From: Astropecten irregularis
Lineage: Eukaryota > Echinodermata > Asteroidea > Paxillosida > Astropectinidae
DNA: 64,000 nucleotides
Direction: 5' to 3'
Assembly: GCA_963971285.1 (NCBI GenBank)
Contig: OZ020258.1
Coordinates: forward strand, 6,138,001 to 6,202,000
The notes under the pieces: model-generated
The model's input: only the letters and a program-made list of their open reading frames with translations
What the model was told of the DNA's origin: nothing
Database searches by the model: none
Translations under genes and position numbers: made by a program
Shown here: positions 26,232 through 55,138 of the stretch, in pieces
Layout of the letters: the number at the start of each line of letters is the position of its first letter
Numbering within the stretch: the stretch's first letter is position 1

Positions 26232-27716
26232 TAGGCCTGGGCGATTAACTCGATTAATCGATTAATCGCGATTACATTCCTGTGTCGATTACTCGATTAG
26301 TAAATTCTGAACTACTCGATTAATCGTGCCAGCGCGATCAGTGCCTTCGAGTTGCGATTAATTCCATGAGTAACTACTATTCTCAGTCGATCAATAGCCA
26401 TGCCGTGTGTGTTGCATGGAGCAGCTGCCTAGACTTGATGACAAGTCGTTAGACATTCGTGTTTTGTCCATCCGCCCGTCAAAATTAGGTACAATCATTG
26501 TGCATCATGCATCGTTCGTATAGTGAGGCTACGTAATCTTGATTCAATAGGGGTCGAGGGTGTATATGTACCGCGGTCGCGTCCCCGCATGTTTGACATT
26601 ATGCAGGACGTACACAGTGTAATGTGAACACGCACACCGTACCCCTGGTGTAGCGATAAAATATACCGACTTGATATCAAGTCTGCCTGCTGCACGTGCA
26701 CCGGATGCCCGCCCAATTGTGACAACACCATGACAACATTTTGAGATTACACTGTAATTGGCCAGTAGCCCTTCTAAAAATACTGCCTTATATGGTCAAC
26801 GTGGATGAGGCATGAATGAGGGCTAGGCCTATACCATTTCGCTGTTTATTGAGGTACATTTAGTTATGTTGCATTTTCAATGAATAATATTTATCTCACT
26901 TAGTAATAGAACGAAAGGTTGTCGGGACTTGTCACACACACACATAAGTTATTGGATACATACAGTTTAAAAGTGTCGGGGTGAATTTTTATTCAAGCCT
27001 GACAGCTGACAACGAAGTTTTTCTCAACTTCGTAGGCCCACGTGTTTACAATGGATTCGGCTACCATGGCCGGCCAGCGAGGCCTGGCGCATGGCGCGAT
27101 GGCATTCAACTACTCGAGTACGGACACTACTCGATTAGACGATTACTGTACTGGACTATTGACTTTGTATCGTATCGTATGATTATCGTGAAGTGAACAT
27201 GTGGAGTAATCGTGAAATGTAAAATAATCGCGATGTGTTTAGTAATCGTGAACTGTATAATAATCGTGTTCACTGTTCAGTCTACATGGGGTGTACATAA
27301 TGTGTCATCGTGTACTATCGTTGACCTATACATGCATGTATGGGACTACGTCTGTGTGTACGTACGTGAGGCAGTAACTGCATGCCTTGTCGGCCAACAC
27401 TCCGCGAAATTACCCTACTTTACTGAAGGAATACCAATAAATATGGACGATATTAGCTTCACGAATTTTGCATTATACCTTATCAGAACAAAAAATGGCA
27501 TTGCTCAATGCCTTGGAAATCGGAACTGATCGCTGTTGAAACTTGTAAGAATCAATGCATATTACGCTAGTGCAGTTTACTGCAGTGCCGCTATGATGAA
27601 AACAAGGTACATGCTGCTTGTATAGTCACTTCCGGGTAATCGCGATTAATCGATTAATCGCGATTATTTCCTCCGCGATTAATCGATTAGTGAAAAGCAC
27701 TAATCGCCCAGGCCTA
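26232..27716. mobile_element. hAT-like non-autonomous element inserted in the satellite
   Basis: The ends TAGGCCTGGGCGATTAA and TTAATCGCCCAGGCCTA are perfect 17-bp inverted repeats. The 8-bp target GTACACAC is duplicated at 26224-26231 and 27717-27724. Subterminal CGATTAATCG motifs cluster at both ends. No transposase frame is seen in the 1485 bp. An 8-bp duplication and TAGG-type ends fit hAT. Confidence 0.9.
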
Positions 27717-30700: not shown

Positions 30701-33028
30701 TACCGAAAAAGTACAGTACACACTGGCCTAAGAACAGCTTAAAACGGCGTCACATTCATAAGCCAATCAGAGTAGGGAAAGTTCAACTTGTATTATCAAA
30801 CATCATTAATGGCCAATCACGTTTGATCATTCCAATTTCCAGGCTCTTCCAACGCCAGCAGGGTTGTAATGTTTCTGGATTAATCAGGAAAGTTAAACTT
30901 TCTCTTATGTTTCCTCCTCAATATATTTGAATTAAGAGAGTTCTTAGAGCTATAAAAATTATGGATTGAAGAAATATGGCACTGGACCTCCTGTCTGGAC
31001 TCTGGGTTTCCATTTGTGACCATTTGTGATGCAATTGGGTGAGAAAGTGGGTCTATTTCAGCCGCTTTGTACAGGGATGTTTTTTTTTTTTAAATGGCTT
31101 CTTTGACTGGAGGGTAGGGGTACATTTTTTTTGTAGTCTGGCACCAGTCAACATGGCTGTTTTCAGTGTATTTTCCTTTGGATGGATTTTCCTCAAAAAG
31201 TCATTGGTTACCCTAACGAAAATTGAAATGAAAATGAAAATTGAAGTTTTCAGCTTCATTTTGGTGTATAGCTTGAGTGTCTGCGAAACTTCCGAGTATT
31301 TTTAATCCTTTTTTTTTAAATTGGCTATTTAGCATGGGAGCCTATGGCAATTTATTTACTGGTCTGCACCCCTGAGTTGTTTTGAATGCTGGTCAACTCG
31401 TACGCCGCCCAACTCGTACCGACTCGTACGCCGACCTACTCGTACGCCACCAGCATGACTTCTGAATATTTTTTAATAATTTTTTGAAATTGGCTATTTA
31501 GCATGGGAGCCCATGGGAATTTATTTACTGGTCTGCATCCCTGAGTTGTTTTGAATGCTGGTCAATTCGCACGCCGCCCAACTCGTACGCCCCAACTCGT
31601 ACCGACTCGTTCGCCGACCAACTCGTACGCCACCAGTATATTATAACAAAATAAACAAGCAATGAGTGTGCGGTGCTCGTCCACGTCGGTGGGGGCAAAC
31701 CTAATTTGAATATAATCTTGATATTATCTACAATTCCACGTGCACTGTGTTCATCAGTCTAATCATTAGCTTCGCTCTGTTTAGCTGCCAAATTCATTTC
31801 AATGTACGCAAGGCAAAAGCAAGGGAATTATATCCTATGGTTACCGAAAAAGTACAGTACACACTGGCCTAAGAACAGCTTAAAACGGCGTCACATTCAT
31901 AAGCCAATCAGAGTAGGGAAAGTTCAACTTGTATTATCAAACATCATTAATGGCCAATCACGTTTAATCATTCCAATTTCCAGGCTCTTCCAACGCCAGC
32001 AGGGTTGTAATGTTTCTGGATTAATCAGGAAAGTTAAACTTTCTCTTATGTTTCCTCCTCAATATATTTGAATTAAGAGAGTTCTTAGAGCTATAAAAAT
32101 TATGGATTGAAGAAATATGGCACTGGACCTCCTGTCTGGACTCTGGGTTTCCATTTGTGACCATTTGTGATGCAATTGGGTGAGAAAGTGGGTCTATTTC
32201 AGCCGCTTTGTACAGGGATGTTTTTTTTTTTTAATGGCTTCTTTGACTGGAGGGTAGGGGTTCATTTTTTTTGTAGTCTGGCACCAGTCAACATGGCTGT
32301 TTTCAGTGTATTTTCCTTTGGATGGATTTTCCTCAAAAAGTCATTGGTTACCCTAACGAAAATTGAAATGAAAATGAAAATTGAAGTTTTCAGCTTCATT
32401 TTGGTGTATAGCTTGAGTGTCTGCGAAACTTCCGAGTATTTTTAATCCTTTTTTTTGAAATTGGCTATTTAGCATGGGAGCCTATGGCAATTTATTTACT
32501 GGTCTGCACCCCTGAGTTGTTTTGAATGCTGGTCAACTCGTACGCCGCCCAACTCGTACCGACTCGTACGCCGACCTACTCGTACGCCACCAGCATAACT
32601 TCTGAATATTTTTTAATAATTTTTTGAAATTGGCTATTTAGCACGGGAGCCCATGGGAATTTATTTACTGGTCTGCACCCCTGAGTTGTTTTGAATGCTG
32701 GTTAATTCGCACGCCGCCCAACTCGTACGCCCCAACTCGTACCGACTCGTACGCCGACCTACTCGTACGCCACCAGCATAACTTCTGAGTATTTTTGATA
32801 ATTTTTTGAAATTGGCTATTTAGCATGGGAGCCTATGGGAATTTATTTACTGGTCTGCACCCCTGAGTTGTTTTGAATGCTGGTCAATTCGCACGCCGCC
32901 TAACTCGTACGCCCCGACTCGTACCGACTCGTTCGCCGACCAACTCGTACGCCACCAGTATATTATAACAAAATAAACAAGCAATGAGTGTGCGGTGCTC
33001 GTCCACGTCGGTGGGGGCAAACCTAATT

Positions 33029-33202
33029 AGCTGTTCCGACATTTCTGATGTCGGAACAGGTTTTGTTTTTCTTCTGATTTTTAGCTGTTCCGACATTTCT
33101 GATGTCGGAACAGGTTTTGTTTTTGTTCTGATTTTTATTATTATTATTAGCTGTTCCGACATTTCTGATGTCGGAACAGGTTTTGTTTTTGTTCTGATTT
33201 TT
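33029..33202 (+). repeat. Stack of three extra Helentron-like 5' heads
   Basis: The 12-bp-stem palindrome CTGTTCCGACAT/ATGTCGGAACAG is repeated at 33029, 33083 and 33149, ahead of the head of the next element (33203). Units are 54 or 66 bp, the longer one carrying a (TTA)n extension. Confidence 0.85.
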
Positions 33203-34243
33203 AGCTGTTCCGACATTTCTGATGTCGGAACAGGTTTTGTTTTTCTTCTGATTTTTATTATTATTATACTTTATCACCCCAAATTTTGTTTATTCCTAAT
33301 CTTTTATAATGTTTGTCTGGTCAGCTTATATGAGGTATCATATGAAAGCTTATAAGCTGAAGTTAATCCTAAGACTGAGTTTGTTAAATTTTTTAATTAA
33401 TTAGGCACGTGACAGCTCATTTGCATATTTAATTAGTCAATTTTGTAACCAGCATATCTCGAGAACGACAAAGGCTATGAATATGATTTTTTTTGCAAAA
33501 GCTTAGTTACATCATGTAGTTGTGCATGCTGCCATAAAATTTACCGTGACGTCATCGTGACATCATGAAAAGGCTGTTTTCGTTAGGAGCAGATATCTTG
33601 ATAACAACATGTGCCACGGTAATGATTATAATTATTGCTTATCTTTTCTTATCGTCTTCTGATTAGCTTAGGAAAGCTTATAAGCTAAGGATCATTCTGA
33701 CACTGAGTTATAAAGATTCTTAATTAATTAGGCATGTGACAGCTCATTTGCATAATTAATTAGTCAATTTTGTAACCAGCATATCTCGAGAACGACAAAG
33801 GCTATGAATATGATTCTTTTTGCAAAAGCTTTGTTACATCATGTAGTTGTGCATGCTGCCGTGAAATTTACCGTGACGTCATCATGACGTCATCTTAAAT
33901 GCTGATTTTATTATTAGCAGTATATCTTGAGAACGGTAAGTGATACGGTAATGGTTCTTTTTGTAAAAGCTTTGTAAGACCCTGTAGGTGTGCATGCTGT
34001 TGTGAAATTAACTGTGACGTCATTATGACGTCATCAAAAGGCATGATTAATGTTTGCAGGATATCTTGAGAATGACAAAAGCTATGGTAATGATTCTTTT
34101 CGCAAAATCTGTGTTATAGCCTTTAGATATGCATGCTGCTTTGGAAATGACCGTGACGTCATCATGACGTCATTGGAGCTTATAAAGCTGATCAAATAAG
34201 TCGGAACAGCTCCGTGTTCGTCCACGAACACTTAAATGTCTAG
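33203..34243 (+). mobile_element. Helentron-like non-autonomous element A (complete)
   Basis: A 5' head palindrome AGCTGTTCCGACAT...CGGAACAGG, then (TTA)n, then a body of ~130-bp repeats with TGACGTCA pairs. The 3' subterminal GTCGGAACAGCT is inverted relative to the head. The 18-nt hairpin GTGTTCGTCCACGAACAC, 8 nt later CTAG, and then host TTATTA complete it. Hairpin + ~10 nt + CTRR is the Helitron 3' signature; the inverted 12-mers are typical of Helentron-type elements. Nearly identical to 40657-41697. Confidence 0.8.
33406..33426. promoter_or_regulatory. E-box plus octamer module at the body start (example in element A)
   Basis: CACGTGAC (33406-33413) and ATTTGCAT (33419-33426) lie between TTAATTAATTA and TTTAATTAG. 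The arrangement recurs in most bodies, e.g. near 40860, 41845, 43725, 48485 and 50350. Binding is inferred only from motif identity. Confidence 0.4.
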
Positions 34244-35635
34244 TTATTATTATACCTTCGCACTTTTTGCTTCCATAGCTTTGTGTGATAAGTTTGTTTA
34301 TTCCTAATCTTTTATAACCTTTTTCTGGTAAGCTTATATGTGGTATCTTATGAAAGCTTATAAGCTGAAGTTAATCCTAAGACTGGGTTTGTTAAAATTC
34401 TTAATTAATTAGTCATGTGACAGTCATTTGAATATTTAATTAGTAAATTTTGTTCGCAGCATATCTCGAGAACGACAAATGCTACGGACATGATTCTTTT
34501 TGCAAAAGCTTGGTTATATCATGCAGTTGTGCATGCTGCCACGAAAATGACCGTGACGTCATTATGAAGTCATCATGACGTCATCGAACTCGAAATGTGT
34601 GTTTCCTATTTAAAGATAAGTAATTTGTTGATTTTTTTCTACGGTTAATTCTAAAATTTACTTAAAATCATTTGTCGGAGAATGGTACATTGAGATTGGA
34701 GTTACTGATGGAATTGCTACGTGAAACATTAACGACTGATTGTTAAAATACACCTTTTAGGCCTTATTCCTCAAAAAGAAAGAATAAACTCCCGCTTTGT
34801 GTAACGTCTCGTGACCATGGCTTGAGATATGAAAATACACGTAGATCGGGGTCGATAGAAGAAGATCAATAGCGCCACCTATAGCATTTTAACTTAAATT
34901 GTGACAAATGACAGAGCTGCATCCGGCCGAATCTGTTGAGGATCGGTCTCTGTTCCATGAAATTGACCGTGACGTCATGAAAAGGCTGAATTTTGTTTGC
35001 ATCATATCTCGAGAACAACAAGTGCTATGGTAATGATTCTTTTTGCAAAAGCTTTGTTAGATCGTGAAGATGTGCATGCGACTGTGAAAATAAGTGTGAT
35101 GTCATAATGATGTCATAAAAAGCTAAAATTGTATTTCATATCGTAAAGAATGTCTGATCGTCATGAAACTTAGTAGGTGTGACGTCTGTGCTACCCCAAG
35201 CATGTTTTAGTGATGACTTTGTTATGACCTAGAAGTAAAGGGTTAAATTCTTAATTAATTAAGCACGTGACAACTCATTTGAATAGCATTTAATCAGTAA
35301 ATTTTGTTTACAGCATATCTCGAGAACGAAAAATGCTATGACAGTGATTCTTTTTGTAAAAAATAGGTTAAATCTTGTAGTTGTACATGCTGCTATGAAA
35401 ATGAACATGACGTCATCATGACGTCATCAAAAGGCTGATTTTTGTCTCTAGCATATCTCGTGAACAACAAAATGCTATGGAGATAATTCTTTTTGCAAAA
35501 GCTTTGTTAAATCCTCTAGATAGCATGTTTTTTTTTAATTGAGCGTGACGTCATCATGACGTCATCAGAGCTTATAAAACTGATCAAATAAGTCGGAACA
35601 GCTCCGTGTTCGTTCACGAACACTGAAATGTCTAG
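34244..35635 (+). mobile_element. Headless Helentron-like body B
   Basis: Starts directly in a TTATTATTA tract without a head and ends GTCGGAACAGCT, hairpin GTGTTCGTtCACGAACAC, CTAG. Contains a diverged copy of the exon-like block also found at 38570 and 47155. Confidence 0.75.
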
Positions 35636-36869
35636 TTATTATTATTATTATTATTATTATTATACTTTATCACCCAAAGTTTGTTTATTCCTGATCTCTT
35701 ACTTAGCTTCTTCTGATCCGCTTAAATGAGGTATCATATGAAAGCTTATAAGCTGAAGTTAATCCTAAGACTGAGTTTGTTAATTAATTATGCACGTGAC
35801 AGCTCATTTGCATATTTAATTAGTCAACTTTGTTAGCAGCGTATCTCGAAAACTACAAATGCTATGAAAATAATTCTTTTTCCAAAAACTTTGTAACATC
35901 ATGTAGTTGTGCATGCTGCCAAGAAATTTATAGTGACGTCATCATGACGTCATCAAAAATGCTGATTTCTATTATTAGCAGCATATCTCGAGAACGGTAA
36001 GTGCTACGGTAATGATTCTTTTTGTAAAAGCTTTATTGCATCATGTAGTTGTGCATGCTGCCCCGAAATTTACAGTGACGTCATCATGAAGTCATCAAAA
36101 AAGGTAATTTTTAATTCTTTAATAATTAAGCACGTGACAGCTCATTTAAATTTTTAATTAGTCAATTTTGTTAGCAGCGTATCTCGAGACCGACAAAGGC
36201 TATGAATATGATTCTTTTTGCAAAGGCTTAGTTACATCATGTAAGTGTGCATGCTGCCAAGAAATTTACCGTGACGTCATCATGACGTCATCAAAAATGC
36301 TGATTTTATTTTTAGCAGCATATCTCGAGAACTGTAAGTGCTACGGTAATGATTCTTTTTGTAAAAGCTTTGTTACATCATGTAGTTGTGCATGCTGCCC
36401 CGAAATTTATAGTGACGTCATCATGACGTCATCAAAAAAGGTTATTTTTAATTCTTTAATAATTAAGCACGTGACAGCTAATTTAAATTTTTAATTAGTC
36501 AATATCTCGAGACCGACAAAGGCTATGAATATGATTCTTTTTGCAAAGGCTTAGTTACATCATGTAAGTGTGCATGCTGCCAAGAAATTTACCATGACGT
36601 CATGACGTCATCAAAAATGCTGATTTTATTTTTAGCAGCATATCTCGAGAACGGTAAGTGCTACGGTAATGATTCTTTTTGTAAAAGCTTTGTTACATCA
36701 TGTAGTTGTGCATGCTGTTTTGAAATTAACTGTGACGTCAATATGACGTCATCAAAAGGCATAATTTATGTTTGCAGCATACATTGAGAATGACAAAAAT
36801 TACATGGTAATGATTCTTTTCACAAAAGCTTTGTTAGAAACTTTAGATGCATGACACACGCACTGCTTT

Positions 36870-37110
36870 GTAAATGAAATTAGGTCGTATATACGTATAA
36901 GCATTTCCACTTTTCCAGCCTCAGCAAGTGTTAGGATGTCGCACACCAATATGGTTTTATAGATGTACTGGTAGCTGTGACTTTGTTGCAGCTGCCGTAA
37001 GAGAATTCCAGGAAGGCGATACATCACGTACGATGGTTTTAGCCATACACGATGGTAAAATCTTTGGCAAAACTTCAACAATTACTGAATTAGGAAAATC
37101 CGTCTGTTGA
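36870..37110 (+). pseudogene. Exon-like fragment carried by element C, function unknown
   Basis: A splice-acceptor-like CACTTTTCCAG is followed by a frame including CRTPIWFYRCTGSCDFVAAA and TMVLAIHDGKIFGKTSTITE, then LGKSVC and a stop (ORF from 36928). The family is not recognised. A second copy at 45541-45765 has an in-frame stop and several replacements, so it behaves as a captured, decaying fragment. Confidence 0.45.
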
Positions 37111-37144
37111 AACCATAATTAGGCTTTTCAGAATGATTCACCAA

Positions 37145-38095
37145 ATGTTTTTTGAGGTGACGAAATGTTTGCGAGTTGACGTAATGTTTGCGAGTTGACG
37201 TAATGTTTGCGAGTTGAGGCAATGTTATAGAGTTGACGTAATGTTTGTGAGTTGACGTAATGTTTGCGAGTTGACGTAATGTTTGCGAGTTGAGGCATTG
37301 TTTTAGAGTTGACGCAATGTTTGCGAGTTGAGGCAATGTTTTCGGGTTGACGCAATGTTTTCGAGTTTACGGAATGTTTTCGAGTTGACGTAATGTTTGC
37401 GAGTTGGCGCAGTGTTTTAGAGTTGACGCAATGTTTTCGAGTTTACGGAATGTTTTCGAGTTGACGTAATGTTTGCGAGTTGAGGTAATGTTTGCGAGTT
37501 GAGGCATTGTTTTAGAGTTGACGTAATGTTTGCGAGCTGAGGCAATGTTTTCGAGTTGACGAAATGTTTGCGACTTGACAAAATGTTTTCGGGTTGACGC
37601 AATTTTTTCGAGTTTACGGAATGTTTTCGAGTTGACGTAATGTTTGCGAGTTGGCGCAGTGTTTTAGAGTTGACGCAATGTTTGCGAGTTGAGGCAATGT
37701 TTTCGACTTGGCGCAATTAATGTTTGCGAGTTGACATAATGTTTGCGAGTTGAGGCAATGTTTTAGAGTTGACGTAATGTTTGCGAGTTGAGGCAATGTT
37801 TTAAAGTTGACGCAATGTTTGCGAGTTGACGCAATGTTTGCGAGTTGACGTAATGTTTGCGAGTTTACGCAATGTGTTTGAGTTGCCACAATGTTTTCAA
37901 GTTTATGTAATGTTTGCGAGTTGACACAAAGTTTTTGAGTTCACAATTGCGAGTTTATGTAATGTTTGCGAGTTTCTACGTAATGTTTGCGAGTTGACGT
38001 AATGTTTTCAAGTTTATGTAATGTTTTCAAATTGACACAATGTTTGCGAGTTGATGCAATGTTTTAGAGGTGACATAACGTTTTTGAGTTGACAA
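37145..38095. repeat. 19-bp minisatellite in element C (~50 units)
   Basis: The consensus is near GACGTAATGTTTGCGAGTT with frequent GAGGCAATG and TTTTAGAGTT variants. The 19-nt period yields 19-residue periodic frames on the minus strand (ASTRKH, NSQTLRQLAN), which are artefacts. Confidence 0.9.
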
Positions 38096-38534
38096 AATGG
38101 TAAAGTCACGGTAAAGGCAAGCATGGGCGCCAAAAAGTGCCAAAGATAGCCCAACGTGTGTGTTCTGGGTCTCAGGAATGTGCTGCTATGTATAAGAGGT
38201 AGGCCAGCAAGTACGTACATATATGACCAGGCACTGTTGCCACGGTAACAATTAGGTACGTGTGCAGTATACAAGGGCATACACATGACGTAGGATGTTG
38301 AAAGTACTGTAAAGTATCCATTATTTTACGTGTGGAGGTTGTGTTATCAGGCTTATTTTCATTACCCCAGTTTCATATACTTGTAAATTTTGAGAGCGAC
38401 AATTAAGTGGTACGAACTTGATTCTTTTATCTGTTATATCATGTAGTTGTGTATATGCTGCCACGAAAATGACTGTGACATCATTACGATATGTCTTGCT
38501 TCAAAATTTGGGTTTCCTATTTAAAGATACGTGA

Positions 38535-38723
38535 TTGGAAGATTTTTTGTCTACGGTTAATTCTAAAATGTCTGTGAATTACTTGAATAAAAATCATTTG
38601 TCGGAGAATGTGACATTGAGACTGAAGTCACTGATAGAATTGCTACGTGAAACATTAAAAACTGGAATACACCATACAGCCCTTATACCTCAAAACAAAA
38701 GAACAATCCTCCGCTTTGTGTGA
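38535..38723 (+). pseudogene. Coding-like block in element C, function unknown
   Basis: The frame contains NHLSENVTLRLK and LLRETLKT, then HHTALIPQNKR. Homologous DNA lies in B (~34650-34800), D (~40020-40190), F (~43025-43200) and H (47121-47309). Only C and H keep the whole frame open, and most C/H differences change amino acids, so selection for a protein is not supported. Possibly a captured exon. Confidence 0.4.
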
Positions 38724-39592
38724 CGTCTCGTGACCATGGCTTACGATACGAAGGTACACGTACGTAGATCGTGGTCGATCGGAGCATAGGATCGGAGGCA
38801 GAGCCATTTACGGCTCTGATCGGAGCACACCTGGCCAATAGCGCCACCAAGCATTTTAACGTTATAAAAAAGCTGATTTTTTGTTTGCAGTATATCTCGA
38901 GAACGACAAATGCTATGGTAATGATTCTTTTTGCAAAAGTTCTGTTAGATACTGAAGATGTGCATGCGGCAGTGAAAGTAAATGTGATGTCACCATGACG
39001 TCATAAAAAGCTGAATTTTATTCCATATCGTTATAAGAATGTCTGATTGTCAGGAAACTTGGTATGTGTGATGTCTGTGCTATATACTCCAGTAATGTTT
39101 TAGTAATGATTTATTATTTAGAATTAAATATTTTTTGGTAAATTGTCGAGATATGCTGGTAAATTTTACATCATGTAGTTGTGCATGCTGCCCCGAAATT
39201 TACAGTGACATCATCATGACGTCATCAAAAAAGGTACTTTTTGGTTAATAGCATTATATCTCGAGAACGGTAAGTGCTACGGTATCGGTTCTTTTTGTAA
39301 AAGCTTTGTTAGACCCTGTAGATTTGCATGATGTTGTGAATTAACTGTGACGTCATTATGACATCATCAAAATGCATAAGTTATGTTTGCAGCATATCTT
39401 GAGAATGACAAAAGCTATGGTAATGATTGTTTTCGCAAAAGCTTTGTTAGAAACTTTGGATGCACGCTGCTTTGTAAATGACCGTGACGTCATCATGACG
39501 TCATCGGAGTTTATAAAGCTGATCAAATAAGTCGGAACAGCTCCGTGTTCGTCCACGAACACTTAAAATGTCTAGTTATTATTATTATTATT

Positions 39593-40545
39593 AGCTGTTC
39601 CGACATTGCCGATGTCGGAACAGGTATTGTTTTCGTTCGAATTTTTCACTATTATTATTCTTTATCGTCCAGATTTTGTTTACAGTTTATCTCTTATAAG
39701 CTTCTTCCGATCAGCTTAGATGAGGTATCTTCTGAAAGCTTATAAGCTAAGGATCATTCTGGAACAGAGTTGTACAAATTCTTAATTAATTAGCCAAGTT
39801 ACAGTCATTTGAATATTTAATTAGTAAACTTTGTTCGCAGCATATCTCGAGAACGACAAATGCTACGGACATGATTTTTTTTGCAAAAGCTTGGTTATAT
39901 CATGTAGTTGTGCATGCTGCCACGAAAATGACCGTGACGTCATCATGAAGTCATCATGACGTCATCGAAATCGAAATTTGTGCTTCTTATTTAAAGATAA
40001 GTAATTTGTTGATTTTTTTTCTACGGTTAATTCAAAAATTTACTAAAAATCATTTGTCGGAGAATGTGACATTGAGATTGGAGTTACTGATGGAATTGCT
40101 ACGTGAAACATTAAAAACTGATTGTAAAAAAAAAAAAATTAGGCCTTATACCTCAAAAAGAATGAATAAACTCCCGCTTTGTGTTTTTGTGGCCATGAAT
40201 TGAGATACGAAGTACGTGCGCACACGTACTGTACACTGTACATGTACACACATGTGCATCCACACTGTACATGTACAGGATGTACATATCATGTACTGTA
40301 TCATGTACGTACACGTATTCGAATTATCCAAATAACTGACCGTAGTCAGAGCCGTTACTCCAAGCGATACGTTATGAATTTGGGGCTTCCAGAGCTTAAG
40401 GCTATGGTCCATATCCGTGGTGTTTCCGTGTTATTTCCAATGGAGCGCATAATTATAGCTCTAGACAACAGATTCGTATGCAGCCGCAGTTAACTTGAAA
40501 GAGTGCTTAAACTAGTCAGTGTACTCGTGGAGGAAGGAAATAATT
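39593..40545 (+). mobile_element. Helentron-like element D, 3' truncated
   Basis: Has a diverged head (CTGTTCCGACATTGCCGATG), a (TTA)n-like tract and body repeats. It lacks the 3' hairpin end and is cut by the head at 40546. A GTAC-rich stretch (TGTACATGTACA type) lies at about 40200-40320. Confidence 0.65.
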
Positions 40546-40656
40546 AGCTGTTCCGACATTTCTGATGTCGGAACAGGTTTTGTTTTTGTTCTGATTTTTA
40601 GCTGTTCCGACATTTCTGATGTCGGAACAGGTTTTGTTTTTCTTCTGATTTTTATT
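40546..40656 (+). repeat. Stack of two extra Helentron-like heads
   Basis: Head palindromes start at 40546 and 40600, immediately before the head of element A' at 40657. Confidence 0.85.
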
Positions 40657-41697
40657 AGCTGTTCCGACATTTCTGATGTCGGAACAGGTTTTGTTTTTCT
40701 TCTGATTTTTATTATTATTATACTTTATCACCCCAAATTTTGTTTATTCCTAATCTTTTATAATGTTTGTCTGGTCAGCTTATATGAGGTATCATATGAA
40801 AGCTTATAAGCTGAAGTTAATCCTAAGACTGAGTTTGTTAAATTTTTTAATTAATTAGGCACGTGACAGCTCATTTGCATATTTAATTAGTCAATTTTGT
40901 AACCAGCATATCTCGAGAACGACAAAGGCTATGAATATGATTTTTTTTGCAAAAGCTTAGTTACATCATGTAGTTGTGCATGCTGCCATAAAATTTACCG
41001 TGACGTCATCGTGACATCATGAAAAGGCTGTTTTCGTTAGGAGCAGATATCTTGATAACAACATGTGCCACGGTAATGATTATAATTATTGCTTATCTTT
41101 TCTTATCGTCTTCTGATTAGCTTAGGAAAGCTTATAAGCTAAGGATCATTCTGACACTGAGTTATAAAGATTCTTAATTAATTAGGCATGTGACAGCTCA
41201 TTTGCATAATTAATTAGTCAATTTTGTAACCAGCATATCTCGAGAACGACAAAGGCTATGAATATGATTCTTTTTGCAAAAGCTTTGTTACATCATGTAG
41301 TTGTGCATGCTGCCGTGAAATTTACCGTGACGTCATCATGACGTCATCTTAAATGCTGATTTTATTATTAGCAGTATATCTTGAGAACGGTAAGTGATAC
41401 GGTAATGGTTCTTTTTGTAAAAGCTTTGTAAGACCCTGTAGGTGTGCATGCTGTTGTGAAATTAACTGTGACGTCATTATGACGTCATCAAAAGGCATGA
41501 TTAATGTTTGCAGGATATCTTGAGAATGACAAAAGCTATGGTAATGATTCTTTTCGCAAAATCTGTGTTATAGCCTTTAGATATGCATGCTGCTTTGGAA
41601 ATGACCGTGACGTCATCATGACGTCATTGGAGCTTATAAAGCTGATCAAATAAGTCGGAACAGCTCCGTGTTCGTCCACGAACACTTAAATGTCTAG
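40657..41697 (+). mobile_element. Helentron-like element A' (complete, twin of A)
   Basis: Head, (TTA)n, body and 3' CTAG end as in element A. By eye the ~1.04 kb sequence is essentially identical to 33203-34243, including the odd ACATGTGCCACGG and CTTATCGTCTTCTG segments. Confidence 0.85.
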
Positions 41698-42642
41698 TTA
41701 TTATTATACTTTATCACCTCAAATTTTGTTTATTCCTAATCTTTTATAATGTTTGTCTGGTCAGCTTATATGAGGTATCATATGAAAGCTTATAATCTGA
41801 AGTTAATCCTAAGACTGAGTTTGATAAATTTATTAATTAATTAGGCACGTGACAGCTCATTTGCATATTTAATTAGTCAATTTTGTTCGCAGCATATCTT
41901 GAGAACGACAAAGGCTATGAATATGATTCTTTTTGCAAAGGCTTAGTAGCATCATGTAGTTGTGCATGCTACCAAGAAATGTACCGTGACGTCATCATGA
42001 CGTCATCAAAAATGCTGATTTTATTATTAGCAGCATATCTCGAGAACGGTAAGTGCTACGGTAATGATTCTTTTTGCAAAGGCTTAGTAGCAACATGTAG
42101 TTGTGCATGCTGCCAAAAAATTTACCGTGACGTCATCATGACGTCATTACAAATGCTGATTTTATTATTAGCAGCATATCTCGAGAACGGTAAGTGCTAC
42201 GGTAATGATTCTTTTTTTAAAAGCTTTGTTACATCATTTAGTTGTGCATGCTGCTCCGAAATTTACAGTGACGTCATCATGACGTCATCAAAAAAGGTAA
42301 TTTTTGGTTTATACCAGTATATCTCGAGAACGGTAAGTGCTACGGTATTGGTTCTTTTTGTAAAAGCTTTGTTAGACCCTGTATATTTGCATGCTGTTGT
42401 GAAATTAACCGTGACGTCATTATGACGTCATCAAAAGGCATAATTTATGTGCAAACAGAGAACATTGAGAATGGCAAAAGCTCCATGGGAACGATTCTTT
42501 TCACAAAAGCTTTGCAAGAAACTTTAGATGAACGCTGCTTTGTAAATGACCGTGACGTCATCATGACGTCATCGAAGCTTATAAAGCTGATCAAATAAGT
42601 CGGAACAGCTCCGTGTTCGTCCACGAACACTTAAATGTCTAG
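41698..42642 (+). mobile_element. Headless Helentron-like body E
   Basis: (TTA)n start, four ~130-bp internal repeats, 3' inverted 12-mer, hairpin and CTAG. The long frame at 41883-42425 is only the internal repeat read through. Confidence 0.75.
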
Positions 42643-43575
42643 TTATTATTATTATTATTATTTTTCTTTATCACCCAATTTTGTTTATTGTTTATCTCTT
42701 CTTATCTTCTTCTGATCAGCTTAGATGAGGTATCAAATGAAAGCTTATAAGCTAAGGATCATTCTGGAACAGAGTTGTACAAATTCTTAATTAATTAGCC
42801 AAGTTACAGTCATTTGAATATTTAATTAGTAAACTTTGTTCGCAGCATATCTCGAGAACGACAAATGCTACGGACATGATTTTTTTTGCAAAAGCTTGGT
42901 TATATCATGTAGTTGTGCATGCTGCCACGAAAATGACCGTGACGTCATCATGAAGTCATCATGACGTCATCGATTTCGAAATTTGTGCTTCTTATTTAAA
43001 GATAGGTAATTTGTTGATTTTTTTTCTACGGTTAATTCAAAAATTTACTAAAAATCATTTGTCGGAGAATGTGACATTGAGATTGGAGTTACTGATGGAA
43101 TTGCTACGTGAAACATTAAAAACCGACTGTAAACAAAAAACATTTTAGGCCTTATACCTAAAAAAGAATGAATAAACTCCCGCTTTGTGTGACGTCTCGT
43201 GACCTTGGCTTGAGATACGAAGGTACAGGGAGATCGGGGTCGATAGAAGCACAGTTATAGCGCCCCCAAGCATTTTAACTTAAATTGTGACAAGTGACAA
43301 AGGCTGCATCCGGCCGAAACTGTTAGAGGAGGTCTCCGTTCCATGAAATTGACTGTGACGTCATCATGACGTCATGAAAAGGCTGAATTTTGTTTGCAGC
43401 ATATCTCGAGAAGGACAAATGATATGGTAATGATTCTTTTTGCAAAAGCTTTATTAGATCCTCTAGATATGCATGGTAATGACAGTGACGTCACCATGAC
43501 GTCATCGGAGCTTATAAAGCTGACCTAATAAGTCGGAACAGCTCTGTGTTCGTCCACGAACACTTAAATGTCTAG
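42643..43575 (+). mobile_element. Headless Helentron-like body F
   Basis: (TTA)n start and standard 3' end (GCTCtGTGTTCG variant). Contains a copy of the coding-like block. Confidence 0.75.
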
Positions 43576-44374
43576 TTATTATTATACTTTATCACCCAAA
43601 GTTTGTTTATTCCTAATCTTCTATAATCTTGTTCTGGTCAGCTTATATGAGGTATCATATGAAAGCTTATAAGCTGAAGTTTATTAAAAGACTGAGTTTG
43701 TTAAAATTTTTAATTAATTAGGCACGTGACAGCTCATTTGCATATTTAATTAGTCAATTTTGTTAGCAGCATATCTTGAGAACGACAAAGGCTATGAATA
43801 TGATTCTTTTTGCAAAGGCTTAGTAGCATCATGCAGTTGTGCATGCTACCAAGAAATTTACCGTGACGTCATCATGACGTCATCAAAAATGCTGATTTTA
43901 TTATTAGCAGCATATCTCGAGAACGGTAAGTGCTACGGTAATGATTCTTTTTGTAAAAGCTTTGTTACATCATGTAGTTGTGCATGCTGCCCCGAAATAT
44001 ACAGTGACGTCATCATGACGTCATCAAAAAAGGTAATTTTTGGTTTATAGCAGTATATCTCGAGAACGGTAAGTGCTACGGTATTGGTTCTTTTTGTAAA
44101 AGCTTTGTTAGACCCTGTAGATTTGCATGCTGTTGTGAAATTTACTGTGACGTCATTATGACGTCATCAAAAGGCATAATTTATGTTTGCAGCATATCTT
44201 GAGAATGACAAAAGCTATGGTAATGATTCTTTTCACAAAAGCTTTGTTAGAAACTTTAGATGCACGCTGCTTTGTAAATGACCGTGACGTCATCATGACG
44301 TCATCGGAGCTTATAAAGCTTATCAAATAAGTCGGAACAGCTCCGTGTTCGTCCACGAACACTTAAATGTCTAG
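43576..44374 (+). mobile_element. Headless Helentron-like body G
   Basis: (TTA)n start, internal repeats and CTAG end; ~800 bp. Very similar to I and K. Confidence 0.75.
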
Positions 44375-45540
44375 TTATTATTAGCTGTTCCGACATTTCT
44401 GATGTCGGAACAGGTTTTGTTTTTGTTCTGATTTTAATTAGCTGTTCCGACATTTCCGATGTCGGAACAGGTATTGTTTTTGCTCATGTTTTCTCGCTCA
44501 ATAGCTTTGTGCACAAAGTTTGTTTATTCGTAATCTTTTATAATCTTTTTCTGGTGAGCTTATATGAGGTATCTTATGAAAGCTTATAAGCTGAAGTTAA
44601 TCCTAAGACTGAGTTTGTTAAAATTCTTAATTAATTAGTCACGTGACAGTCATTTCAATATTTAATTAGTAATTTTTGTTAGCAGCGTATCTCGAGAACG
44701 GCAGGTGGTACGGAATTAATTCTTTTTGCAAAAGCTTAGTAACACCCTGTAGATGTGCATGCTGCCATAAAATTTGTGACGTTACGTCATCATGACGTCA
44801 CCACCGGAAGTTGAATTTTGACTCGAAATAACTCAAAAACGAATGGATTTGGGCATTTAAAACCAACAGTTGAAAAGATAGAGACATGCTAGGGCTTTCA
44901 GAAAATATAAGTGATGACGTCATAAGGGTTACACAGCGCCCTCTACGGTTGATTAAAGATATACAGTGATTACGTAATCCGCAAAAAAACAACGGATTTC
45001 CGTGAAATTTGGTAAGTGTCAAGCACTGGAACACCTCCTTATGTTCGTGAAGTTTGAATGTGATGACGTCATTCTACCGGAAGTTATCTGATTTTAAAGG
45101 AAAAAATGACGTCATTGTTAAAATACTTTTTACTCGGTAACTGCATATGCCAAGAAAATAACTCTTTTTGCAAAAGCTTGTTTACATCCTTTAGTTGTGC
45201 ATGCTGCAATGAAAATGGCTGCGAAGTCATCATGACGTCATAAAACTGGCTGTTTTAAAGCCCGAGATCGAGGGCCCATAATGTATATGTGCATGGCCAT
45301 TATGGTATGTCTGTTTACGGGCTGTACCCTACATGTGGTACTCTTTACAGTGAATCCCCGAGACCCCGAATGAGCTGGGACTCATGGTTTATCTTAACAC
45401 GCCGGCTTCAAAGATCCAAAAATGAACAATGCAGAGTATAGCACAATATTTCTATAATATTTAACGAATGTTTTTGTGAAAAAAAATCAGAAATATGTCG
45501 TGTAATTAAGGTTATAACTCAAAAACACTATAAGGGCAAA

Positions 45541-45765
45541 TTAGGTCGTATACGTATAAGCATTTCCAGCCTCAGCAAGTGTTAGAATGTCGCACACCAA
45601 TATGGTTTTATAGATGTACTGGTAGCTGTGACTTTGTTGCAGCTGCCGTATGAGAATTCGAGGAAGGTGATACATCACGTACGATGGTTTTAGCCATACA
45701 CGATGGTAAAATCTTTGGCAAAACTTTAACAATTACTGAATTAGGAAAATCCGTCTGTTGAAACC
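45541..45765 (+). pseudogene. Second copy of the exon-like fragment, broken
   Basis: Matches 36885-37110 but has an in-frame stop (CGTAAGAG became CGTATGAG, shown as AAV*EF) and changes G to E, Q to E and S to L. Function unknown. Confidence 0.45.
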
Positions 45766-45794
45766 ATAATTAGGCTTTTCAGAATGATTCACAA

Positions 45795-46735
45795 AATGTT
45801 TTTTGAGGTGACGAAATGTTTGCGAGTTGACGTAATGTTTGCGAGTTGAGGCAATGTTTTTGAGTTGACGTAATGTTTGCGAGTTGGCGCAATGTTTTAG
45901 AGTTGACGTAATGTTTGCGAGTTGAGGCAATGTTTTCGAGTTAAAATGTTTGCTACTTGACAAAATGTTTTCGAGTTGGCGCAATGTTTGCGAGTTGGCG
46001 CAATGTTTTCGAGTTGACGTAATGTTTGCGAGTTTGCGCAATGTGTTAGAGTTGACGTAATGTTTGCGAGGGGAGGCAATGTTTCGAGTTGACGAAATGT
46101 TTGCTACTTGACAAAATGTTTTCGGGTTGACGCAATGTTTGTCAGTTTACGGAATGTTTTCGAGTTGACGTAATGTTTGCGAGTTGGCGCAATGTTTTAA
46201 AGTTGACGCAATGTTTGCGAGTTGAGGCAATATTTTCGAGTTAGCGCAATGTTTTCGAGTTGACGTAATGTTTGCGAGTTTGCGCAATGTGTTAGAGTTG
46301 ACGTAATGTTTGCGAGTTGAGGCAATGTTTTCGAGTTGACGAAATGTTTGCTACTTGACAAAATGTTTTCGGGTTGACGCAATGTTTGTGAGTTTACGGA
46401 ATGTTTTCGAGTTGACGTAATGTTTGCGAGTTGGCGCAATGTTTTAGAGTTGACGCAATGTTTGCGAGATGAGGCAATGTTTTTGAGTTGGCACAATGTT
46501 TGGGAGTTTGCCGAATGTTTCAGAGTTGACGCAATGTTTGCGAGTTGAGGCAATGTTTTCGAGTTGGCGCAATGTTTGCGAGCTAGTTGACACAATGTTT
46601 TTGAGTTGGCCCATTTAATGTTTGCGAGTTGACGTAATGTTTGTGATTTGAGGTAATGTTTGGGAGTTGACGTAATGTTTGCGAGTTGAGGCGATGTTTT
46701 AGAGTTGACGCAATGTTTGCGAGTTGACGCAATAG
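45795..46735. repeat. 19-bp minisatellite in element H (~49 units)
   Basis: Same motif and same relative place as in element C. Variants include TTTGCTACTTGACAAAATG. Confidence 0.9.
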
Positions 46736-47120
46736 TAAAGGCAAGCATGCTGGGCACCAAAAAGTGCCCAAAATGCTATGTAACAGGTAGGCCAGCAAGT
46801 ACATGACCAGGCACTGTTACCACGTCGGTAACAATTTAGGTACGTGTGTATACAACGGCATACAGACTAGTAGGATATTGAAAGTACTGCATGTAAAGTC
46901 TCCATTATTTTGCGTGTGGAGGTTGTGTTATCAGGCTTAGTTTCATTACCCCAGTTTCATATACTTGTAAATTTTGAGAGCGACAAGTGCTACGAACTTG
47001 ATTCTTTTATCTGTTATATCATGTAGTTGTAATTGTGTATGCTGGCACGAAAATGACTGTGACATCATAACGATATGTCATTGTCGTCGAAATTTGGGTT
47101 TCTTATTTAAAGATACGTGA

Positions 47121-47309
47121 TTGGAAGATTTTTTTTCTACGGTTAATACTAAGATGTCCGTGAATTACTTGCATAACAATCATTTGTCGGAGAATGTGAC
47201 ATTGAGACTGAAGTCAATGATAGAATTGCTACGTGAAACATTAAAAACTGAAATACACCATACAGCCCTTATACCTCAAAACAAAAGAATAATCTTCCAC
47301 TTTGTGTGA
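47121..47309 (+). pseudogene. Coding-like block in element H, function unknown
   Basis: Frame with MSVNYLHNNHLSENVTLRLK and HHTALIPQNKR, paralogous to 38535-38723. Not recognised as any family. Confidence 0.4.
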
Positions 47310-48314
47310 CGTCTCGTGACCATGGCTTGCGATATGAAGGTACACGTAGATCGTGGTCGATCGTCAGCACACCAATAGCGCCACCAAGCATTTTAACGTT
47401 ATGAAAAAAAGCTGAATTTTTTGTTTGCAGTATATCTCGTGAACGACAAATACTATGGTAATGATTCTTTTTGCAAACGTTCTGTTAGATCATGTAGATG
47501 TGCATGCGGCAGTGAAAATAAATGTGATGTCACCATGACGTCATAAAAAGCTGAATTTTCTTCCGTATCGTTAAGAATGTCTGATTGTCAGGAAACTTGG
47601 TATGTGTGATGTCTGTGCTATATACTCCAATAATGTTTTAGTAATGATTTATAATTTAGAATTAAACATTTGTTGGTAAATTTTTTAGAATTGTCGAGAT
47701 ATGCTGGTAAATTTTACATCATGTAGTTGTGCATGCTGCCCCGAAATTTACCGGGACGTCATCATGAAGTCATCAAAAAGTAATGTTTAATTCTTTAATA
47801 TTTAAACACGTGACAGCTCATTTAAATGTTTAATTAGTCAATTTTTTAGCAGCGTATCTCGAGAACGACAAAGGCTATAGTATGATTCTTTTTGCAAAAG
47901 CTTAGTTACATCATGTATTTGTGCATGTTGCCAAGAAATTTACTGTGACGTCATCATGACGTCATTAAAAAAAGGTTATTTTTGGTAAGCAGTATATCTC
48001 GAGAACGGTAAGTGATACGGTAATGGCTCTTTTTGTAAAAGCTTTGAAAGACCCTGGAGATGTGCATGCTGTTGTGAAATTAACTGTGACGTCATTATGA
48101 CGTAATCAAAAGGCTTAATTCATGTTTGCAGGATATCTTGAGAATGACAAAAGTTATGGTAATGATTCTTTTCGCAAAATCTTTGTTATAGCCTTTAGAT
48201 ATGCATGCTGCTTTGGAAATGACAGTGACGTCATCATGACGTCATCGGAGCTTATAAAGGTTATCAAATAAGTCGGAACAGCTCCGTGTTCGTCCACGAA
48301 CACTTAAATGTCTA

Positions 48315-48315
<1 letters not shown>

Positions 48316-48347
<32 letters not shown>

Positions 48348-49135
48348 CTTTATCACCCAAAGTTTGTTTATTCCTAATCTTCTATAATCTTGTTCTGGTC
48401 AGCTTATATGAGGTATCATATGAAAGCTTATCAGCTGAAGTTTATTATAAGACTGAGTTTGTTAAAATTCTTAATTAATTAGGCACGTGACAGCTCATTT
48501 GCATATTTAATTAGTCAATTTTGTTAGCAGCATATCTTGAGAACGACAAAAGCTATGAATATGATTCTTTTTGCAAAGGCTTAGTAGCATCATGTAGTTG
48601 TGCATGCTACCAAGAAATTTACCGTGACGTCATCATGACGTCATCAAAAATGCTGATTTTATTATTAGCAGCATATCTCAAGAACGGTAAGTGCTACGGT
48701 AATGATTCTTTTTGTAAAAGCTTTGTTACATCATGTAGTTGTGCATGCTGCCCCAAAATTTACAGTGACGTCATCATGACGTCATCAAAAAAGGAAATTT
48801 TTGGTTAATAGCATTATATCTCGAGAACGGTAAGTGCTACGGTATTGGTTCTTTTTGTAAAAGCTTTGTTAGACCCTGGAGATTTGCATGCTGTTGTGAA
48901 ATTGACTGTGACGTCATTATGACGTCATCAAAAGGCATAATTTATGTTTGCAGCATATCTTGAGAATGACAAAAGCTATAGTAATGATTCTTTTCACAAA
49001 AGCTTTGTTAGAAACTTAAGATGCACGCTGCTTTGTAAATGACCGTGACGTCATCATGACGTCATCGGAGCTTATAAAGCTGATCAAATAAGTCGGAACA
49101 GCTCTGTGTTCGTCCACGAACACTTAAATGTCTAG
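48316..49135 (+). mobile_element. Headless Helentron-like body I
   Basis: (TTA)n start, internal repeats with TGACGTCA pairs, 3' hairpin and CTAG. Confidence 0.75.
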
Positions 49136-50129
49136 TTATTATTATACTTTATCACCCAAAGTTTGTTTATTGCTTATCTCTTCTCAGCTTCTTCTGATCA
49201 GCTTAGATGAGGTATCATCTGAAAGCTTATAAGCTAAGGATCATTTCGTAACTGAGTTGTAAAAATTCTTAATAATTAGGCACGTGACAGCTCATTTGCA
49301 TATTTAATTAGTCAATTTTGTAACCAGCGTATCTCAAGAACGGTAAATGCTACGGAAATGATTCTTTTTGCAAAAGCTTAGTTACATCATGTAGATGTGC
49401 ATGCTGCCATTAAAATGGTCGTGACGTCATCATGACGTCATCAAAAGGCTGTTTTTACGAAGCATATATTTTTAAAACGACATGTGCCACGGTAATGATT
49501 CTTATTGCTCATCTTTTCTTATCTTCTTGTGATTAATAGCTTAGATGAAGTATCTTAGGAAAGCGTATATAAGCTAAGGATCATTCCCACACTAACAAAA
49601 ATCCTTCATTAATAAGCCACGTGACAGCTCATTTGCATAGTTAATTAGACTTTTTTGTAACCACCATATCTCGAGAACGACAAAGGCTATGAATATGATT
49701 CTTTTTGCAAAAGCTTAGTAGCATCATGTAGTTGTGCATGCTGCCAAGAAATTTACCATGACGTCATCATGACGTCATCAAAAATGCTGATTTTATTATT
49801 AGCAGCATATCTCGAGAACGGTAAGTGCTACGGTAATGATTTTTTTGTAAAAGCTTTGTTACATCATGTAGTTGTGCATGCTGCCCCGAATTTTACAGTG
49901 ACTTCATCATGACGTCATCAAAAAAGGTAATTTTTGGTTTATAGCAGTATATCTCGAGAACGGTAAGTGCTACGGTATTGGTTCTTTTTGTAAAAGCTTT
50001 GTTGGAAACTTTAGATGCACGCTGCTTTGTAAATGACCGTGACGTCATCATGACGTCATCGGAGCTTATAAAGCTGATCAAATAAGTCGGAACAGCTCCG
50101 TGTTCGTCCACGAACACTTAAATGTCTAG
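49136..50129 (+). mobile_element. Headless Helentron-like body J
   Basis: As above; contains an extra body-start-like module around 49500-49660 and ends in CTAG at 50126-50129. Confidence 0.72.
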
Positions 50130-50131
50130 TT

Positions 50132-50180
50132 AGCTGTTCCGACATTTCTGATGTCGGAACAGGTTTTGTTTTTGTTCTGA

Positions 50181-50211
<31 letters not shown>

Positions 50212-51001
50212 ACTTTATCACCCAAAGTTTGTTTATTCCTAATCTTCTATAATCTTGTTCTGGTCAGCTTATATGAGGTATCATATGAAAGCTTATCAGC
50301 TGAAGTTTATTATAAGACTGAGTTTGTTAAAATTCTTAATTAATTAGGCACGTGACAGCTCATTTGCATATTTAATTAGTCAATTTTGTTAGCAGCATAT
50401 CTTGAGAACGACAAAAGCTATGAATATGATTCTTTTTGCAAAGGCTTAGTAGCATCATGTAGTTGTGCATGCTACCAAGAAATTTACCGTGACGTCATCA
50501 TGACGTCATCAAAAATGCTGATTTTATTATTAGCAGCATATCTCGAGAACGGTAAGTGCTACGGTCATGATTCTTTTTGTAAAAGCTTTGTTACATCATG
50601 TAGTTGTGCATGCTGCCCCGAAATTTACAGTGACGTCATCATGACGTCATCAAAAAAGGTAATTTTTGGTTTATAGCAGTATATCCCGAGAACGGTAAGT
50701 GCTACGGTATTGGTTTTTTTTGTAAAAGCTTTGTTAGACCCTGTAGATTTGCATGCTGTTGTGAAATTTACTTGTGACGTCATTATGACGTCATCAAAAG
50801 ACATAATTTATGTTTGCAGCATATCTTGAGAATGACAAAAGCTATGGTAATGATTCTTTTCACAAAAGCTTTGTTAGAAACTTTAGATGCACGCTGCTTT
50901 GTAAATGACCATGACGTCATGATGACGTCATCGGAGCTTATAAAGCTGATCAAATAAGTCGGAACAGCTCCGTGTTCGTCCACGAACACTTAAATGTCTA
51001 G
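50132..51001 (+). mobile_element. Helentron-like element K (complete)
   Basis: Head palindrome at 50132 only 2 nt (TT) after the CTAG of J, then (TTA)n, body and its own CTAG at 50998-51001. The shortest complete member (~870 bp). Confidence 0.8.
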
Positions 51002-51840
51002 TTATTATTATACTTTATCACCCAAAGTTTGTTTATTCCTGATCTCTTACTTAGCTTCTTCTGTTCAGCTTAAATGAGGTATCTTATGAAAGCTTATAAG
51101 CTGAAGTTAATCCTAAGACTGAGTTTGTTAAAATTCTTAATTAATTAGGCACGTGACAGCTCATTTGCATATTTAATTAGCTGTTTTTGTTAGCAGCGTA
51201 TCTCGAGAACCACAAATGCTATGAAAAAAATTCTTTTTCCAAAAGCTTTGTTACATCCTGTAGTTATGCATGCTGTCATGAAAATGGCCGCTACGTCATC
51301 ATGACGTCATCAAAAGGCTGTTTTTGTTAGGAGCAGAACGACATATGTCATGGTAATGATTCTTTTTGCTTATATTTTCTTATATCGTCTTCTGATTAGC
51401 TTAGATGAGGTATCTTAGGAAAGCTTGTAAGCTAAGGATCATTCTGTCACTGAGTTGTAATAATTCTTCATTAATTAAGCACATGACAGCTCATTAAAAT
51501 GTTTAATTAGTAAATTTTGTTAGCAGCGAATCTTGAAAACCACAAATGCTACGAAAATAATATTTTTTCCAAAAGCTTTGTTATATGCTGTAGTTGTGCA
51601 TGCTGTCATGAAAATGGTTGGTAGGCCTATGTAAGTCATCGTGAATGTGCCAAGACTAGGTATAAAGGCCAGGACGTGCATGGCCAGGCACAGACTGTTG
51701 GCACGGTAAGGTGATACTTTACAAGCGCAATGGCACATAATTCATGCATAATGTAGTACCATGGTAGTAGGCCTACGTTGAAAGAATGTAAAGTCAATCG
51801 TCAGGAGATTGTGATAACAGGGCAAAAACGGTATTAGTTT
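51002..51840 (+). mobile_element. Diverged Helentron-like body L, no 3' end found
   Basis: Begins TTATTATTATACTTTATCACCC and keeps body repeats to ~51610. The part after that (CCAGGCACAGACTGTTGGCACGG, then AGGAGATTGTGATAACAGG) resembles 38180-38360 in element C, so it is an older relative of C and H. The right limit is uncertain; weak similarity may reach ~52330. Confidence 0.6.
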
Positions 51841-54812: not shown

Positions 54813-55138
54813 CATAAGTTTCCCCAAGTGGTTAACAAAATAGCTCAGATACAGAGAGCCTAATCTCCACACTTTGTAATTTTTAAATTGTTAAAACACT
54901 TCATAAGTTTAGCAAATTAGCAAACATTTAGCAAAGGTTAGTTTTTCTTTGTCCAAAACCATAAACAGTTAAGTAACATTTAAAGAGTGCTGCAATTTAA
55001 TTTAAATAAGCTATTTAATTTTTAACTCAATCACTATTTTTTATGTAAATAGTATGGTTCAAAATAACAAAGCAGATCCATAAGATCTACAAGAGCCCAG
55101 AAGATTATGCACAATAAACAGTTATTTTTTAAGAATTT
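54813..55138. other. No recognised feature
   Basis: AT-rich spacer before the 71-bp minisatellite. Confidence 0.5.

Follow-up and report, generated by a model that had tools for sequence, protein, structure and literature searches.

We analyzed a 64,000-nucleotide window of the Astropecten irregularis genome (contig OZ020258.1, positions 6,138,001 to 6,202,000 of the forward strand; "window" refers to this whole stretch, and all coordinates below are counted within it) and, inside it, a single locus, i.e., a cluster of Helentron-like elements spanning positions 33029–51617. The cluster is composed of 5' heads (H) and of bodies (B), most of which finish with a hairpin followed by CTAG. The 11 heads listed in the initial annotation (33029, 33083, 33149, 33203, 39593, 40546, 40600, 40657, 44383, 44440, and 50132) and its 11 hairpin-CTAG 3' ends (34243, 35635, 39575, 41697, 42642, 43575, 44374, 48315, 49135, 50129, and 51001) were all recovered at exactly these positions, every one on the forward strand. 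We consider it probable that this arrangement arose by nested, co-oriented insertion of non-autonomous Helentron-type elements (HINEs) at the (TTA)n tracts of older copies. Features that can be read directly from the sequence point to this, namely the uniform orientation, the exact boundaries, one identical element standing innermost twice, and the fact that removal of the nested units restores tracts typical of the family as well as one complete element.

The elements are ordered H1 H2 H3 H4 B1 B2 B3 H5 B4 H6 H7 H8 B5 B6 B7 B8 H9 H10 B9 B10 B11 H11 B12 B13, which gives 13 bodies versus 11 heads. A 3' end is present in 11 of the 13 bodies and missing from B4 (unit 39593 to about 40212) and B13 (51002 to about 51617). 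The 31-bp head palindrome AGCTGTTCCGACATTTCTGATGTCGGAACAG was found in an exact form in nine of the 11 heads (H5 and H10 are variants), and the 44-bp 3' end GTCGGAACAGCTCCGTGTTCGTCCACGAACACTTAAATGTCTAG is exact in seven of the 11 ends, the others being variant.

The cluster opens with a stack of four heads, H1–H4 (33029–33256), in agreement with the runs of up to four reported initially; each head is a 54-bp unit with a 5' subterminal inverted repeat (subTIR) and an adjacent inverted repeat, and 0, 4, and 0 TTA units lie between them. H4 and B1 form an intact, 1041-bp element of the alpha subfamily (33203–34243), which is followed by two headless bodies, B2 (34244–35635) and the long B3 (35636–39575), carrying a 19-bp minisatellite, for which the partners assigned by bracketing (i.e., by pairing heads and bodies like nested brackets) are H3 and H2, respectively. 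The divergent head H5 with its body B4 (39593–40212) is 94% identical to B7 over 568 bp and precedes a spacer (40206–40545) that matches nothing else in the window and may be transduced host DNA. The second stack, H6–H8 (40546–40710), has 0 and 1 TTA units between its heads and ends in another intact, 1041-bp alpha element, H8+B5 (40657–41697), behind which the headless bodies B6 (41698–42642), B7 (42643–43575), and B8 (43576–44374, beta subfamily) are bracketed with H7, H6, and H1, respectively. Head H9 (44383–44439) is separated from the headless beta body B10 (48316–49135) by H10 with the long body B9 (44440–48315), inserted behind H9, devoid of a TTA tract and also carrying a 19-bp minisatellite. 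Finally, an intact, 870-bp beta element, H11+B12 (50132–51001), is inserted between the headless bodies B11 (49136–50129) and B13 (51002–51617), neither of which finds a spare head. Within the stacks, the spacing of heads is always 54+3k bp (54, 66, and 54; 54 and 57; 57).

Two sequence peculiarities of the cluster were also recorded. The motif TGACGTCA, which resembles a CRE/ATF site, occurs 98 times within 33029–51617 and not once in the remaining window. The minisatellites of B3 (37154–38093) and B9 (45805–46733) contain about 49 copies each of the 19-bp unit GAGTTGACGCAATGTTTGC, with a GC skew of about 0.24 in 2-kb bins.

Anatomy and class of the elements

The 12-mer AGCTGTTCCGAC, with which the head begins, is present, without mismatch, in all 11 heads and its reverse complement in all 11 ends, which makes it a subTIR of at least 11 bp, as in HINEs described in the oyster (Cg_HINE, PMC7492417) and in a mite (PMC4067079). 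Folding of three of the 11 heads gave, in each case, a 12-bp stem of −14.1 kcal/mol that none of 200 shuffled sequences equalled, so that the palindromic 5' subTIR with its adjacent inverted repeat was seen in every head folded. The two of the 11 ends that were folded gave 6–7-bp stems (z of −2.5 and −2.1) that were equalled by 3 and 4 of 200 shuffled sequences. The 3' subTIR starts 44 bp before the last base in the end at 34243 and 45 bp before it in the end at 39575, within the distance of 38–60 bp given for the 3' subTIR in the mite. A (TTA)n tract stands directly behind H2, H4, H8, and H11, a single unit behind H7, and a variant tract behind H5, while H10 has none and H1, H3, H6, and H9 are immediately followed by the next head. 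The bodies contain central tandem repeats of 139–143 bp (about 141 bp), and thus both the microsatellite and the central repeats of HINEs are present. TTAGCTG stands at all 11 heads, and the canonical 5' TC terminus of Helitrons is absent.

No Rep or helicase domain was found among 17 open reading frames (ORFs) of the window scanned against Pfam, 12 of which lie wholly in the cluster. As this set includes 11 of the 30 ORFs of at least 60 aa overlapping B3 and B9, and no such domain appeared in them, the elements look non-autonomous. By their anatomy, the elements of the cluster are assigned to the non-autonomous Helentron type (HINE). They share with the HINE/DINE-1-like non-autonomous Helentrons, as described in PMC4067079 and PMC7492417, the 5' subTIR with an inverted repeat, the microsatellite behind it, the central tandem repeats, the 3' subTIR with a hairpin, T-rich or TT targets, and the lack of visible coding sequence. 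In contrast to the HINEs covered there, they end in CTAG, their (TTA)n microsatellite is itself a target, and they are nested, by bracketing, four or five deep. The proto-Helentron of Phytophthora (PMC4067079) has 5' TT and 3' CTAG termini, as would the cluster elements if the TT belongs to them, but it is about 14 kb long and protein-coding, and it inserts between A and T, whereas the base before the cluster elements, if they start with TT, is A in seven of the 11 cases.

Several other matches to Pfam were dropped. DUF2028 (46200–46775, reverse strand), the BIRD-IDD zinc finger (37131–37442, reverse strand), and SSV1 ORF D-335 (56451–56942, forward strand) scored above the curated cut-off and were treated as chance matches because all of them lie in or across 19-bp or 71-bp repeats; the latter form a minisatellite at 55138–57113 (27.7 copies, 92% matches). 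Rota_NSP4 (36803–37081, reverse strand), just outside a repeat and below the cut-off (E-value 0.009), was likewise dismissed as chance. A search of IMG/VR with the 31-bp head pattern returned no matches, within the limits of a search that may omit near records.

Evidence for nested insertion

One line of evidence comes from the two alpha elements, since 33203–34243 and 40657–41697 are identical at 1041 of 1041 positions, and the shared sequence extends beyond the element by TT (2 nt) on the left and by TTATTATTATAC on the right. As identity stops at the element ends, H4+B1 and H8+B5 represent separate transpositions, each innermost in its stack, and, judging from these boundaries, the final step in both large stacks, if not earlier ones, took place locally. 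The repeats of the locus could also have been produced by segmental duplication or unequal crossing over, for which the adjoining satellite array might provide an occasion; the 1041-bp pair, however, shows no identity past the element ends and tract, and adjacent copies are not the most alike, so that we regard this origin as highly improbable.

Removal of the nested units rejoins each older head with its headless body, and the (TTA)n tracts restored in this way can be compared with those of intact relatives. For H7+B6 the rejoined tract has 4 units, the same as in the intact alpha copies (4 and 4), while the rejoined beta tracts of H9+B10 and H1+B8 have 11 and 8 units, respectively, and the intact beta element H11+B12 has 9. 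The other rejoined tracts (3 units in H3+B2, 13 in H2+B3, and 7 in H6+B7) have no intact relative for comparison. Moreover, the 875 bp of H9+B10, once rejoined, match the 870 bp of H11+B12 over their whole length at 97.4%, i.e., one complete element is recovered.

Neighboring bodies are not especially alike, which speaks against concatemers and unequal crossing over. In the first 290 bp (all 13 bodies), adjacent bodies share on average 84.8% identity versus 86.7% for all pairs, and 98% of shuffles equal or exceed the observed value; in the last 240 bp (the 11 bodies with a 3' end), the averages are 87.8% versus 89.0%, equalled or exceeded in 96% of shuffles. These values bear on the possibility that no nesting took place at all, and that a short 5' piece was multiplied into heads by slippage or rolling-circle amplification while the bodies came from concatemeric read-through. 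Plant arrays with many 5' ends and one 3' end have been described (Xiong et al., as told in PMC12628747), and in our cluster H2–H3 and H7–H8 are identical pairs and other close pairs are one letter apart, as such a process would leave them. Nevertheless, the identical copies B1 and B5 are not adjacent and have their boundaries exactly at element ends, the spacers vary by whole TTA units, and 7 of 54 sites distinguish H9 from H10; we therefore consider this course quite improbable. Simple slippage of a 54-bp repeat, named initially as an alternative for the head stacks, is rejected for H9–H10 because of the seven differing sites. For the identical pairs H2–H3 and H7–H8, a local duplication of single heads, which would detract from nesting, is unlikely.

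Further observations weigh against nested insertion as the complete account. Rejoined H7+B6 can be aligned with the intact alpha elements only piecewise (92.0% over 427 bp and 86.3% over 473 bp); tract lengths are labile, and their agreement is based on few cases. Bracketing by itself is weak evidence, given that every head finds a partner in 21% of orders when 11 heads and 13 bodies are arranged at random. Whole TTA units remain to the left of the head in only four of the nine tract insertions described below (H3, 4 units; H5, 5; H8, 1; H9, 2), and the other five (H2, H4, H7, H10, and H11) stand at the left edge of the tract, with zero TTA units on the left. The head of H1 carries the letter C, as in the alpha type, yet its bracketed body B8 is beta, and the beta heads H9 and H11 carry G. 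Two bodies, B11 and B13, stay unpaired by bracketing; the pattern was initially said to be exactly that expected from nesting, which agrees with the restored tracts and complete element and disagrees with the excess of bodies over heads.

The order of insertions can be read in part. The proposal that the innermost body is the youngest agrees with the identical, hence young, copy found innermost in both large stacks. An increase of divergence with the distance from the stack, suggested as a test, was not confirmed, as no monotonic rise appears in the first 290 bp (13 bodies), in the last 240 bp (11 bodies), or in the three beta copies. The outermost B8 differs by about 2% from B10 and B12, and B9, innermost behind H10, is 81% identical to its sole long relative, B3, though 95.8% identical to B1/B5 over its last 240 bp. 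Divergence from a copy that was not the source gives no date of insertion, and distance is an invalid clock without source copies. The locus holds a partial rather than a total order of insertions.

Target sites and their preference

TT precedes all 11 heads and TTA follows CTAG at all 11 ends, in line with the insertion at TT known for HINEs. The nick may fall between the two Ts, leaving one T at each end of the element, or TT may be duplicated, or the nick may lie before TT, with the element starting as TTAGCTG. With regard to the insertion between A and T of canonical Helitrons, if the element starts with TT, the preceding base is A in seven, T in three, and G in one of the 11 cases, and CTAG is followed by T in all 11. 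As to a target-site duplication, the rejoined tracts stay in phase, but Ts brought by the element would look the same as a duplicated TT, and the right side of the H1 site is lost.

The 66 bp to the left of H1 (32963–33028) belong to a unit of a satellite array and recur at 14 other places, 11 times exactly and three times at 98.5%, with a further 20-bp partial match at 3289. At all 14 copies the site is empty and the sequence continues as CTAATTTGAATATAATC; since these copies are uninterrupted, the 5' boundary of H1 is exact. The satellite-like array itself, containing ACTCGTACGCC subrepeats, occupies 13303–33028, and the start of the cluster lies within the last array unit of the window; eight of the 13 intervals that separate shared sites of the array measure 1140–1141 or 1322–1323 bp.

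Nine heads (H2, H3, H4, H5, H7, H8, H9, H10, and H11) occupy the place of another copy's tract, each immediately after a head tail or a CTAG. H1 is located inside the satellite array, and the stack H6–H8 stands at AATT, after about 340 bp of DNA unmatched elsewhere in the window, and not behind the tract of an older head. A tract presents TT on a single strand, which is enough to account for the uniform orientation of the elements; of the 88 TTATTA sites in the cluster, 82 are on the forward and 6 on the reverse strand.

For target statistics, the ten insertions inside the cluster (H2–H11) were used, with both strands counted, the variant tract of H5 regarded as outside the tracts, and one chance stretch in B9 (45090–45097) purged from the tract list. 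Nine of the ten are at tracts, more than expected if all TT sites (105 of 4219 in tracts; P = 4e-14) or all TTA sites (79 of 1135; P = 4e-10) were equally available. With any TTATTA equally open (58 of 88 in tracts), the excess is not significant (P = 0.095), which counts against a specific attraction to tracts; this control was picked post hoc, after the data had been seen. A plain preference for TTATTA suffices to explain the tract bias, and recognition of the element by itself need not be assumed. The notion of a self-targeting locus is therefore not upheld, as motif preference alone would yield the pattern. The remnant to the right of the inserted unit is exactly TTATTATTATAC in five of the nine tract insertions (before B2, B6, B8, B11, and B13), which may reflect a preferred position or chance in short tracts.

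It was also noticed that the central repeats contain CTGATTTTATTATTAGC, which resembles a head tail joined to a head start (33908, 41362, 42021, 42162, 43898, 48659, 49793, and 50524); no insertion was found at any of these eight sites.

Unpaired units, known systems, and a possible landing pad

Nested insertion would proceed as follows. An element made of a palindromic TT-AGCTG head, (TTA)n, a body with repeats of about 141 bp, a 3' subTIR, a hairpin, and CTAG would insert at TTA, presumably mobilized by the Rep/Helicase of a Helentron acting in trans. As the (TTA)n behind a head presents a site on one strand only, the newcomer would be forced into the same orientation. The older head would come to lie to its left and the older body, deprived of its head, to its right, and with repeated landings heads would accumulate to the left and bodies to the right. 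To balance 11 heads against 13 bodies, read-through, capture, or loss must be added to nesting.

There is no head between H1 and the array, barring a loss exact at TT, and the H1 site is empty in all 14 flank copies, which suggests that B11 and B13 came by read-through of 3' ends; H1-B8-B11-B13 probably arrived as a single unit, with the headless B11 and B13 carried along with H1-B8. The 3'-end bypass required for this has been demonstrated for Helraiser, a Helitron of a different family from the cluster elements (PMC4778049). The DNA to the right of B13 is unmatched, and the other half of the H1 target site, sought as an exact 22-mer, has its only matches in the window within the array, which again tells against a simple nest. 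A second anomaly is the H5 unit: B4 breaks off at about 40212, the point up to which it can be matched to B7, and everything from H5 up to the 3' end at 43575 lies as one block in the tract of B8, consistent with transduction of about 340 bp together with the 3'-truncated H5-B4.

Both anomalies bear on another possibility, namely that composite blocks with multiple heads and bodies were nested elsewhere and then transposed here whole, which overlaps nested insertion and departs from it solely in the place of nesting. The outer residue H1-B8-B11-B13, with one head, three bodies, and a clean empty site on the left, looks like one read-through unit, the H5 unit is devoid of its own 3' end, and Helitrons with multiple 5' ends occur at different genomic places in Fusarium (PMC5148889); the two alpha copies, however, moved as single-head elements, with identity ending at the head. 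We regard nesting elsewhere as possible, though somewhat doubtful.

Self-insertion of this kind is not without precedent, and we rate the cluster as a variant of known Helitron self-insertion. In Fusarium, several 5' ends preceding one 3' end were explained by self-insertion, and in Metarhizium acridum three tandem copies were attributed to two insertions into the 5' end or to rolling-circle replication (both PMC5148889). The multi-5' arrays are common to those fungi and our cluster, but headless bodies matching the extra heads, or an element-borne microsatellite site, are not described in the available part of that paper. Tandem Helitron arrays of bat and silkworm were attributed to terminator bypass (PMC4067079), and nested, shuffled Helitron loci are known from the oyster (PMC12628747). 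The cluster resembles the bat, silkworm, plant, and oyster arrays of these papers as a gathering of co-oriented or nested rolling-circle elements, to which read-through probably contributed here; unlike in those arrays, its adjacent bodies come from different subfamilies, with (TTA)n at the junctions. In a literature search of incomplete coverage, and in the available portions of the papers, we found no stacks with headless bodies in line and no tract internal to an element serving as the insertion site.

It is conceivable that the microsatellite carried by many HINEs behind the 5' end is a landing pad that draws newcomers and forces their co-orientation, turning single elements into growing nests with spreading composite units, a generalization that we put forward as speculative and, on present grounds, unlikely. 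Lepidopteran Helitron-like elements reportedly disrupt (GAAA)n microsatellites (Coates 2010), likewise an insertion into a microsatellite. Such a landing pad would destroy neither partner, as any head together with the first 3' end still makes a complete element. Arrays have so far been explained, in the papers cited above, by terminator bypass, rolling-circle amplification, and self-insertion, to which a possible role for the HINE microsatellite is now added: with TTA targets carried by the element on one strand, dissimilar copies would come to form arrays of uniform orientation, keeping a partial record of the order of their insertion.

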